Assembly: GCA_903851035.1 (NCBI GenBank)
Contig: CAINND010000052.1
Span: 1-38,281 of the forward strand
Source of the DNA: an uncultured Acidobacteriota bacterium
Lineage (GTDB): Bacteria > Acidobacteriota > Terriglobia > Terriglobales > Acidobacteriaceae
Length of the DNA stretch: 38,281 nucleotides
Reading direction: 5' to 3'
Under the pieces are notes generated by a model that was given only the letters and a program-made list of their open reading frames with translations, had not been told where the DNA came from and did not search any database. Numbering within the stretch: position 1 is the stretch's first letter; each line of letters begins with the position of its first letter. Below, piece after piece: positions 3,048-32,981 of the stretch. The position numbers and the translations under genes were made by a program.

Positions 3048-3123
3048 GGGGCTATAGCTCAGTTGGGAGAGCGCATCGTTCGCAACGATGAGGTCGTCAG
3101 TTCGATCCTGACTAGCTCCACCA
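3048..3123 (+). tRNA. tRNA-Ala (anticodon CGC)
   Basis: The 76-nt cloverleaf can be folded by eye. The acceptor stem is GGGGCTA with TAGCTCC, including the G3-U70 pair that identifies alanine tRNAs. The D arm is GCTC/GAGC, the anticodon stem CATCG/CGATG carries loop TTCGCAA with anticodon CGC (reads GCG), and the T arm is followed by discriminator A and an encoded CCA. The 3' 45 nt are duplicated at 8770-8814, which marks the gene as the attachment site of the element to its right. The tRNA remains whole because the element brought its own copy of the 3' part. Confidence 0.97.
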
Positions 3124-30629: not shown

Positions 30630-31142
30630 ATGAGCGTGATTGACGAAGTCCTGGCCGCTAACGCCCGCTACAAGGAGACGCACGACGCGTCTCTCTATTC
30701 GCCCAGCCCGCGCCGCCACCTGGCGGTGCTCATGTGCATGGATACCCGCCTGCTCTCCGCCGCCCTGGGCCTCGACTTTGGCGACGCACACTTCATCCGC
30801 AACGCCGGCGGCATCGCCACCGATGACGCCATCCGCTCCCTGCTCGTAAGCCACTACATGCTCGGCACAAAGGAGGTCATGGTCATCAACCACACCGACT
30901 GCGGCCTAATGAAAGCCACGGAGGAGGAGATGCACCAGATTATCGAGACCAAGGCCGGTCGGCCCCCGAATATGCCCGTGCGCTTCCACGCCTTTAAGGA
31001 CGTAGCCAAAAACGTGCACGAACAGCTGGAGCGGCTGGCCTCGCACAACTGGGTGAGAAAAGAGCTGACCCTGCGCGGCTTCGTCTACGACGTGACCACC
31101 GGCCACCTGACCGAGGTGCCTTGGGAGTGCAAGAGGAGCTAG
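30630..31142 (+). CDS. Beta-class carbonic anhydrase
   Basis: The 170-residue enzyme interconverts CO2 and bicarbonate. Zinc ligands are Cys36 in MCMDTR (with the Asp38-Arg40 dyad), His88 and Cys91 in NHTDCG. The segment IRNAGGIATDDAIRSL is also typical. It is shorter than plant-type beta enzymes and resembles the compact bacterial subgroup. ATG 30630 has GGAGG (30616-30620) 9 bp upstream; a TTG at 30624 is too close. It is not in an operon with ispA by any clear sign, though only 57 bp separate them. Confidence 0.92.
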   Translation: MSVIDEVLAANARYKETHDASLYSPSPRRHLAVLMCMDTRLLSAALGLDFGDAHFIRNAGGIATDDAIRSLLVSHYMLGTKEVMVINHTDCGLMKATEEEMHQIIETKAGRPPNMPVRFHAFKDVAKNVHEQLERLASHNWVRKELTLRGFVYDVTTGHLTEVPWECKRS

Positions 31143-31179
31143 AGGGAATCGACAGAAAATTTTGCGGGGTGGGATTCCA

Positions 31180-31760
31180 ACACAAACACGAATCCCGAGG
31201 GTGGCGACCCGATTCACCTCGACCAGCAGTTCGCGTTAGACCCTTACCAGACCTGCTCTCGTTGCTTTCAGCCTTTCAGCTGACTGCCCCGTGCGGTCCC
31301 GGTTCGGGCTCCGGGCTAACCGACCAATCGGACAAACCGACTCGTTCCTCGGGATCCTATCTTGCCTTTCACAGTATCCTGTTCGCCTCAACCAGCAGCT
31401 CGCTATAGACCCTCGCTGCCCCTCATAAGCTCAACAACGGATGTCGTACACAGCAGGCCCATTGGATTGCTCCGTTGAACCGTCGGACATGCGGTGCGAC
31501 CCGCCTGCCCTAGCACCGGTTTGCGGCCGGCGCGTTGCTCCTTCAGGTCTTGCGACCCTACGGGAGAACCAGAAGAGTTGCGCTCTCCTGGCCCTGTCGC
31601 CTTTGCGGGCGCCAGGCTTTATTTCCTACCAGCACCGCCGTGCCGATAGGGGGTTCCAAGGGCTTGCACCCTCTTCGCCCGGGACTGCCGTCCCTAGGTT
31701 CCGGCAACCGCCGTCGCCGGATTCGCTGTGTACTTCCAAGTCCGTTGATGGCCTAAGTGA
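31180..31760 (-). ncRNA. Large structured noncoding RNA candidate, family not identified
   Basis: No believable protein frame crosses this stretch, but the minus strand folds into many helices. A long-range helix closes 31436-31747: CAACGGA (31747-31741) with TCCGTTG (31442-31436), and GTACACAGC (31734-31726) with GCTGTGTAC (31455-31447). Inside lie hairpins GGGAC/GTCCC, AGGGT-GCAA-GCCCT, CCAGGAGAG/CTCTTCTGG with loop CGCAA, and GGTC-GCAA-GACC. GCAA loops are GNRA only on the minus strand, which fixes the direction. The second half has the helix ATCCCGAGG (31355-31347)/CCTCGGGAT (31200-31192) and two copies of a 32-nt sequence. It does not match RNase P, tmRNA, SRP RNA or rRNA by eye. HEARO/omega RNA or an intron remnant are the first families to test. 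Confidence 0.6.
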
Positions 31761-32229
31761 GCTCGCTTGAGCCCCGGACTCACCACCAACTGGGAAAACT
31801 TGGGAAACTGTCAAAGAACGATTGTTGTTGTACCGCAACCGTAAAAAGAGTCAAGCAAACAGGCGGAACTCTATCTGCCGTGTTTTCAATCGAGTGCAGC
31901 CCATCCACAAGGCCCTGCATTATGTTTTGTGCAGCCGGATGAATTTTTCCTGCAAAAAACAGTACACACGGCAGCGCACGCAAAAATCGAAGTATCGCGA
32001 AAAGGCGCATAAACACTGCTTCAAATCGATATCCGCCATCGTCGGATTCACGCATCCGGCCTCTGCCACCGGCACCAGTGCTCTCCGCATGACTACGGTG
32101 CAAAAGCCGTGCGGAAGCGCGTTTTTCGCGGCTCCGGCAATTCATCAAAATGTAACTTTGACGCCGCTAGCGGCCTGCGGAGAAGCTTCCTTGAATGCGA
32201 TGCAGCGATATTGCGGAGGAAGTGTTGCA
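31761..32229. other. Intergenic region, no gene seen
   Basis: Apart from the candidate promoter and boxA-like site, I see nothing I can name. Frames on both strands (31822-32352 plus, 31780-32148 minus) lack protein-like composition. Confidence 0.5.
31809..31854 (-). promoter_or_regulatory. Candidate promoter and boxA-like site for the RNA
   Basis: On the minus strand TTGACT (31854-31849), 16 bp, TACAAC (31832-31827) precede CGTTCTTTGACA (31820-31809), which resembles the boxA antitermination sequence found before rRNA genes. The position, 50-60 nt before the structured segment, fits a long untranslated transcript. Confidence 0.35.
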
Positions 32230-32257
32230 CCCGCGCCGGAAACTACTCCAGCGCGGG
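32230..32257 (-). terminator. Hairpin after the metallo-hydrolase gene
   Basis: On the minus strand CCCGCGCTGG and CCGGCGCGGG pair over 10 bp (one G-U) around an 8-nt loop, 10 bp past the stop codon. There is no T-run, so termination strength is uncertain. Confidence 0.5.
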
Positions 32258-32267
32258 GCGTAAAGCC

Positions 32268-32981
32268 TTATGAAAGAGTCAGTTCGCGGCGCACGCCGGG
32301 CTTCAGGTCCCAGATGTTGAAGTCCAGCTCGGTGGCTGTCGAGGCCAGTTGACTGGGTTTGCCGGTCAGCACAGGAAACGTCCCGAAGTGCATGGGCACC
32401 AACACCTTAGGACGCAGCAGGCGGCAGGCGTATTCGGCCTCGCGCGCGCCCATGGTGAAGTGATCTCCAATGGGCAGCAGCGCAAAGTGCGGCGCGTACA
32501 GGTCGTGGATGATCTGCATGTCGCTAAACACGGCCGTGTCTCCCGCGTGGTAGAGGCGCAGGCCGCCACTCAGTTCGACCACATAGCCGCAGGCCTCGCC
32601 GCCATAAACCATGCTGCCATCCTCTTCCTGGATGCCGCAGGAGTGCACGGCGTGCGTCATGGTGACCTTGACGCCGCAGACCTGCTGCGTGCCGCCCTTG
32701 TTCATGGGCGAGATGTTTTTGGCACCCTTGCCGCCCAGCCAGCTTGCCAGTTCGTAGATGCCGACGACCGTAGGCTGATGCTGACGGCAGATGGCGACCG
32801 CGTCTCCAATGTGGTCGCCGTGGCCATGCGTGCAGAGCAGGGCGTCGACCTTTGTCTGCGTCTTCTCGCTTTCCGGACATAGTGGGTTTTGCGTGAGCCA
32901 GGGGTCAATCAGGATGGTCTTGCCCTCGGCGGTTTCCAGCTTGAAGGTGGAGTGGCCAAGCCATGTAAGAAAGTGCGGCAT
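32268..32981 (-). CDS. UPF0173-type metal-dependent hydrolase (metallo-beta-lactamase fold)
   Basis: The 237-residue protein has the metallo-beta-lactamase fold signature THGHGDHIGD, an N-terminal WLGHSTFKLE with DPWLTQNP, then HAVHSCG, LYHAGDTAVFSDM and a C-terminal MHFGTFP that supplies the last metal ligand. This is the UPF0173 (YtkL-like) family, whose substrate is not established. The start ATG 32981 has GAGGA about 9 bp upstream. It follows the rhodanese gene by 37 bp on the same strand; the pairing may point to sulfur or thioester chemistry, which is only a guess. Confidence 0.88.
   Translation of the reverse strand: MPHFLTWLGHSTFKLETAEGKTILIDPWLTQNPLCPESEKTQTKVDALLCTHGHGDHIGDAVAICRQHQPTVVGIYELASWLGGKGAKNISPMNKGGTQQVCGVKVTMTHAVHSCGIQEEDGSMVYGGEACGYVVELSGGLRLYHAGDTAVFSDMQIIHDLYAPHFALLPIGDHFTMGAREAEYACRLLRPKVLVPMHFGTFPVLTGKPSQLASTATELDFNIWDLKPGVRRELTLS

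Follow-up and report, generated by a model that had tools for sequence, protein, structure and literature searches.

The question raised by this locus is whether a minus-strand stretch without an evident protein gene encodes an RNA, and if so, what kind of RNA. The window, i.e., the whole stretch of DNA that was analysed, is 38,281 nt long, and a sequence-only reading of it had proposed for the minus strand of 31180-31760 a large structured RNA whose family is unknown, with an Rfam covariance search and covariation in homologues among the checks. The proposal holds, with transcription being inferred: there is no Rfam match, the helices covary, and the promoter is conserved in varied surroundings. 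On the basis of homology, fold and covariation, the structured RNA is placed at 31186-31820 of the minus strand (about 640 nt) and consists of two tandem rod domains on that strand, namely domain A at 31364-31820, including a lineage-specific insertion, and domain B at 31186-31359. The interval first proposed was too short, as it left out about 60 nt of the 5′ end, which hold the closing helix of domain A and a boxA-like site, and also the promoter (31760-31854). The ends of the RNA are inferred from the positions of the promoter and the helices; the 5′ end in the window is probably near 31821, and the 3′ end possibly lies as low as about 31156.

Within the window itself, the long-range helices of 7, 9 and 9 bp that had been described are present by inverted-repeat search. 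The perfect 9 bp helix ATCCCGAGG/CCTCGGGAT (31192-31200 with 31347-31355, minus strand) closes domain B, the helix GTACACAGC/GCTGTGTAC, also of 9 perfect base pairs, joins 31446-31454 with 31725-31733, and a third pair, of 10 nt at 90% (31432-31441 with 31741-31750), contains the perfect 7-bp CAACGGA/TCCGTTG. The GCAA-capped hairpins reported for the minus strand are found in the predicted fold as well, where the loop is GCAA in six of the ten hairpins of the central array. When 31160-31820 was folded against 20 shuffles, z was -7.55 for the minus strand and -2.60 for the plus strand. Beyond the closing helix of domain B, the sequence has an extra 3′ hairpin, GGGATTC...GAATCCC (31171-31196, minus strand), and a U run of the window copy at 31156-31159, about 30 nt past the helix; from the letters alone, the hairpin and the U run are a possible terminator. 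In 79 of 112 extracts, a TTTT lies in roughly the final 85 nt.

In order to place the RNA among known families, the whole window was compared with Rfam 15 at gathering scores, and only a tRNA-Ala was returned; this tRNA-Ala (CGC) lies at 3048-3123 on the plus strand. For 31100-32300, hits with E up to 5 were only FMN, SOX2OT_exon4 and serC, all far below their cut-offs, and 25 loci of relatives had no match at gathering scores. That is to say, the covariance search ended without a match either at gathering scores or above chance. RNase P RNA, tmRNA and 6S RNA were rejected as identities, having their own copies elsewhere (C60:77336-77756, C61:31355-31724 and C60:106375-106564). Membership of OLE, GOLLD, ROOL or HEARO, which we take to be among the Rfam families, is not met either, there being no Rfam match at gathering score. 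Acido-1 and Acido-Lenti-1 are acidobacterial candidate RNAs that a table in Weinberg et al. 2010 (PMC2864571) marks as not cis-regulatory; in that table these two carry Rfam accessions, and Soil-1 and Solibacter-1 do not. Acido-1 and Acido-Lenti-1 resemble the RNA studied here in being acidobacterial and non-cis, but the window has no match to the Rfam models. No description of the RNA was found in the literature searched, which lacked bioRxiv and most subscription papers, and by term search the main text of two surveys (PMC11109978, PMC8632094) has no Acidobacteria terms. The RNA is a new family with an unusual tandem-module architecture, Soil-1 and Solibacter-1 being outside the comparison.

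As for its distribution, a DNA search of 61 genomes gave matches in 23, all of the window's family (f1), and a single copy was found in the window's own genome. With a compact copy as the query, 119 of 300 f1 genomes matched, covering 48 of the 79 genera; since only two candidates per genome were scored in this search, no copy number can be derived from the matches, and in many f1 genomes they lie on two contigs. A 26-base RNA pattern searched across a collection of 84,980 species gave 65 stretches, all with acidobacterial titles (Acidobacteria/Acidobacteriota, Terriglobia/Terriglobales, Acidobacteriales, Acidobacteriaceae or Candidatus Sulfotelmatobacter, the last being assigned by NCBI taxonomy to Terriglobales, Candidatus Korobacteraceae). 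Under a strict filter, scans of 399 genomes of the class and 396 of the phylum gave matches in f1 only (26 and 7 genomes, respectively). Phages and plasmids had no match to the RNA by DNA search, and the 26-base pattern was not found in viral contigs. Moreover, all 20 DNA-negative f1 genomes that were searched with R1, a covariance model built from the 3′ half (domain B) only, were negative again, including one of the window's own genus (G003). Presence is thus patchy, and so the RNA is not essential across the whole of f1.

At the loci L245, L246, L018, L180, L004 and L025, the RNA copies lie at contig ends, and counts taken from draft genomes probably fall short for this reason. Two copies at different places of one genome (L009 and L030 in G017) are 95.4% identical, and the best other copy reaches 89.9%. 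Concerted evolution of two copies in one genome is found for this pair and not for L008/L029 or L007/L028, with three further pairs being not comparable.

The covariation analysis rests on 112 distinct full-length copies with a mean identity of 72%, assembled after 15 partial hits had been dropped. RNAalifold on the first 23 copies gave 99 pairs, 45 of them with a change kept on both sides, and when column pairs of the alignment were ranked by mutual information, the top nine were complementary in 85-99% of the weighted sequences. The null model re-placed the substitutions on the tree. Against it, only columns 51-176 passed E <= 0.05 as a single pair when mutual information was the score, and no pair did so with the pairing-weighted score. 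Among the top 40 pairs, 21 were complementary (null mean 4.05, maximum 9) and 15 were stacked, compared with 0 in 40 simulations. When stacks of three pairs were tested, 22 overlapping stacks reached E <= 0.05, with helices in both halves of the RNA, and the stacks equivalent to the closing helix of domain B (alignment columns 198-202 with 352-356) covary. It should be stated that the switch to the three-pair test was made after the weak single-pair result and the ranked list had been seen. Covariation at the level of helices is clearly above the tree-based null.

The same alignment bears on the claim that no protein gene is present. Covariation is in its favour, and so are the RNA lengths, which fall in all three frames among the 112 relatives (30, 42 and 40 by remainder modulo 3); against it, the region is overlapped by mechanically called ORFs, the longest of 109 aa. 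Some reading frame stays open across at least 80% of the RNA in 40 of the 112 copies, so the coding test alone is not decisive, and the constraint is better accounted for by covariation than by coding. GC-rich sequence generally folds well, which might suggest that the structure is a chance one, or else that the locus is a decayed rRNA. The z of -7.55, the homologues in more than a third of the f1 genomes searched and the covariation all speak against chance, and the comparison with 24 loci that bear 16S rRNA, RNase P, tmRNA or 6S turned up no more than three matches of 13 nt (E 0.45), 23S rRNA having been compared through Rfam only; this explanation can practically be set aside.

The covarying RNA has an internal order that recurs. 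When the consensus sequences of its two halves were aligned, the score was 116; 2000 shuffles had a mean of 80.4 (sd 6.6) and did not exceed 107. In all six relatives searched, R1 finds the adjoining domain A, with E of 3.3e-18 in L017, 1.1e-16 in L007, 1.2e-15 in L165, 1.5e-13 in L014, 1.6e-7 in L022 and 2.9e-7 in L021. In the window, R1 scores domain B at 122.1 bits (E 3.9e-32), the window sequence itself being one of the 23 rows of the model (L002). Domain A of the window, with its large insertion, reached only E 0.14 with R1 (31375-31572) and is matched at 31648-31822 (E 3.8e-7) by a second model, R2, which was trained on f1 units and on those of an f2 genome described below (G043). Three adjacent wobble pairs are kept in both domains: in domain A as U-G in 112, U-G in 111 and G-U in 110 of 112 copies, and in domain B as three G-U wobbles in 23, 23 and 22 of 23 copies. 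The cap region contains a GNRA sequence in all 112 copies for domain B and in 101 of 112 for domain A. R1 also gave matches of 16-22 bits on the opposite strand at three loci, as palindromic rods would give. Read from the sequences, then, the window and its close relatives have an RNA of two homologous rods. In L013, a third unit is not claimed, as the two R2 hits there may be the halves of domain A flanking an insertion.

The two f1 domains differ consistently, with inserts of up to about 330 nt in domain A and none in domain B of the aligned copies, and this is also where the size of the window copy comes from. From the start to the last helix, the median length of the RNA is 336 nt; 87 of 112 copies are 320-350 nt long and 8 of 112 exceed 430 nt. 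In the window, the terminal hairpin of domain A is replaced by a long closing stem with an array of about ten short hairpins (31431-31750, minus strand), and the large size of this copy is due to these hairpins inserted into rod A. The insertion is common to two congeneric genomes, in the three-species consensus fold 20 of its 128 pairs are changed on both sides yet kept, and at this place of domain A some other genera carry separate inserts. Regarding the suggestion that the RNA is as large as the giant bacterial RNAs, the window copy does fall in the size range of OLE, GOLLD, ROOL and HEARO, but this is a property of the lineage's insertion and not of the family. The likeness to these RNAs is that of being large and highly structured; the difference is that the core of the new RNA is a chain of homologous rods, with most copies of the compact length given above.

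The number of rods is not fixed at two. A permissive scan of 40 genomes gave clear matches in two of the eight genomes of the sister family f2 (G043 and G044, of the same order), whereas eight genomes from other families of that class gave no match; a match in the f2 genome G037 (E 0.106) is probably due to chance. At locus L244 of G043, R1 scores units at 1489-1640, 1641-1798, 1964-2123 and 2124-2272 (E 5.8e-16 to 8.2e-5), and the unit-sized gaps 1799-1963 and 2273-2424 were not scored as units by it. R2, which was not trained on G044, tiles locus L246 of that genome without overlap at 110-268, 269-440, 441-602 and 603-752 (E 2.2e-18 to 2.7e-10), with a weak match at 753-864 (E 0.011). It also picks up the final unit, in L245 (E 1.8e-13), and scores nothing in three control loci, L137, L032 and L128. 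This model has only 24 base pairs, none of them in the closing helix, and so leans on sequence. R1 hits in L247 and L249, where R2 has no match, were taken as chance. When folded singly, six of six G043 units are closed rods, as are four of six G044 pieces, V1 and V4 not forming one closed rod. The whole six-unit RNA of 943 nt folds with z = -10.07 (20 shuffles), and no Rfam match was found in the f2 RNA at gathering scores. The count of six in G044 comes from two unjoined contigs, both of which end inside the RNA. In G043 and G044, about six rods, each of about 160 nt, follow one another to make up the f2 RNA. The hairpin GGGATTC...GAATCCC after domain B of the window resembles the unit junctions of this six-unit RNA, and is possibly the leftover of a further unit.

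Tandem homologous modules are the defining feature of the family, one that is invisible from a single sequence; the family belongs among the large structured non-coding RNAs, with the tandem modules as its distinctive trait. The modules could also mean that the RNA is a precursor, that is, a chain cut between modules into small RNAs of about 160 nt, of which tandem copies raise the dose. The units abut exactly, the six G043 units each fold alone, and some f2 junctions are self-complementary by eye, as a precursor would have it, but the consistent difference between the f1 domains and the restriction of inserts to domain A suggest distinct roles for the modules, and we consider the precursor rather unlikely.

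Upstream of the RNA, a conserved block TGTGGATGGGCTGCACTCGATTGAAAACA was recognised at 31881-31909 (minus strand) by comparing carriers, and is described around TGTGGA...GCTGCACTCGATTGAAAACA. Allowing at most 3 mismatches, it occurs in 12 carriers at 8 places in 7 of the 12 genomes, all of them at RNA copies, and has no match in the other 5. In this conserved region, CTGCAC is present twice on the minus strand, at 31894-31899 and 31929-31934, 35 nt apart, a spacing that could suit a pair of regulator sites. An upstream element common with rRNA promoters is not claimed: TGTGGA is found only in part of 20 rRNA regions, and its distance to the -35 element is about 37 or 25 nt in the rRNA regions read versus 55 nt in the window. 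Several rRNA promoters (L204-L223) have a TGTGGAAAT-like sequence upstream of -35. The -35 element of the RNA is TTGACT (31849-31854, minus strand), with TTGAC kept here in 111 of 112 copies, and it is followed after a 16-nt spacer by a probable -10 element, TACAAC (31827-31832, minus strand), a weak consensus match that reads TAAAAC or TAAAAA in many relatives. TTCTT stands 35-37 nt after TTGAC in 111 of 112 copies. Two f2 loci have, by eye, a similar GAAAA.AAA..AAATA block ahead of TTGACG.

The RNA then begins with the boxA-like sequence GTTCTTTGACA (31809-31819, minus strand), which also lies in the 5′ strand of the helix that closes domain A. Its core TCTTTGACA is shared by 95 of the 112 f1 copies and by all 20 rRNA leaders that were recovered from 38 carriers, which meets the criterion for a boxA of the hosts; the start of the f1 RNA is called boxA-like because TCTTTGACA is common to the rRNA leaders of its carriers. 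Four f1 copies have TTCTTCGG in place of TCTTTGACA. In two copies read, L012 and L028, the partner strand has changed to match; their boxA-like strand is TTCTTCGGC or TTCTTCGGT. No boxA is present in the two f2 loci read. The boxA of a CRISPR array is GTTCTTTAAAA according to PMC7862264. The new RNA is like rRNA leaders and CRISPR arrays in that a long untranslated RNA opens with the boxA-like GTTCTTTGACA, and differs from them in that the site, at the presumed RNA start, is also a helix strand and is absent in the two f2 loci read. An abundant RNA with a 5′ boxA might be a decoy that titrates NusB/S10 and so tunes rRNA synthesis, and the sharing of TCTTTGACA with every recovered rRNA leader would fit this; however, the site forms part of the closing helix, where some copies show compensated changes, and it is lacking in the two f2 loci read, so that the decoy is quite improbable.

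The genomic surroundings were examined at 65 named loci, where 47 different combinations of neighbours occur and the commonest neighbour family is present in 15 of 65. By mechanical ORF calls around the relatives' loci, the nearest downstream ORF is opposite to the RNA in 44 of 61 cases and on the same strand in 17 of 61, and the nearest upstream ORF is opposite in 31 of 54. In the window, the downstream neighbour is a convergent carbonic anhydrase, and the upstream neighbour, on the strand of the RNA, is a metallo-beta-lactamase-fold protein. Two homologous structured domains in tandem recall the NAD+-I riboswitches (PMC10702441), and a cis-acting leader or tandem riboswitch has to be weighed for this reason; but the new RNA has no constant downstream gene, the window's own downstream gene runs towards it, a place in the leader of a regulated gene is not borne out by the mechanical ORF calls, and the f2 RNA has about six modules. 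This explanation is already disfavoured and has very little left to support it. Glycine riboswitches are likewise built of tandem aptamers, and the same likeness and difference apply to them. On balance, the surroundings indicate a separate gene rather than a leader.

The neighbours also bear on the idea that the RNA belongs to a mobile element (HEARO, omega RNA, group II intron or retron). Copies lie on two contigs in many genomes, and DUF5131, which was once, we presume, named after phage proteins, is a neighbour at 4 of 65 loci. The RNA has no Rfam, phage or plasmid match, however, and the window proteins scanned are ordinary, in line with the earlier statement that no HNH nuclease, reverse transcriptase or phage gene is linked to it here: the neighbours are ordinary, and none was found among ten other window proteins scanned. 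An origin of this kind is highly unlikely.

What the comparison shows is a set of homologous modules with conserved helices, a conserved promoter region and no constant neighbour gene. The reading we favour, with about even confidence, is a stand-alone tandem-rod RNA with its own promoter that is a trans-acting multivalent platform, likely for a protein, where both transcription and action in trans are inferred. A multivalent platform is favoured because one conserved rod is repeated in a separately placed RNA. The RNA would be transcribed from its own promoter and act in trans, and each module would be one copy of the same binding surface, which in f1 may consist of the helix with three adjacent G-U wobbles, the conserved internal loops and the GNRA-type cap. 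One molecule would then gather several partner molecules, most likely of a protein, and serve as their sponge or scaffold, and the boxA-like start in f1 may help RNA polymerase through a long untranslated RNA, which is no more than a lead.

Sponges of the CsrB/RsmZ type carry many copies of one protein site, with GGA motifs in apical loops, and they offer an analogy of working, namely a repeated binding site in a stand-alone RNA. They are built of short GGA hairpins, whereas the new RNA has rods of about 160 nt, and it does not meet the criterion for a CsrA sponge, GGA being absent from all 11 loops of the central part of the window copy. The partner could also be RNA only: GNRA caps and repeated rods might dock within or between molecules, as homo-oligomers are reported for OLE, ROOL and GOLLD (PMC12286853). 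The GNRA sequences in the cap regions of both domains and the hairpin array of the window lineage would suit such docking, but no receptor has been identified and covariation between modules was examined in ranked pair lists only, and an assembly made of RNA alone remains improbable. Returning to the multivalent platform, it may tentatively be extended to a modular, countable RNA, in which evolution gains or loses 160-nt rods (two to about six) and sometimes grafts an often GNRA-capped hairpin array onto one rod, giving a tunable scaffold that organises protein or assembles itself; as some six-unit junctions could pair within a rod or across, the chain might switch between two global folds. 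This extension is doubtful as yet.

Bacteria have few stand-alone structured RNAs whose folds are conserved, and such RNAs usually point to basic biology. The RNA described here occurs in 48 of 79 sampled genera of one family, without an Rfam 15 match, and its module number varies between families. Valence is thereby an experimental variable, since one, two or six modules are directly comparable, and the RNA also offers a way to ask whether stand-alone RNAs, and not rRNA and CRISPR arrays alone, make use of boxA.
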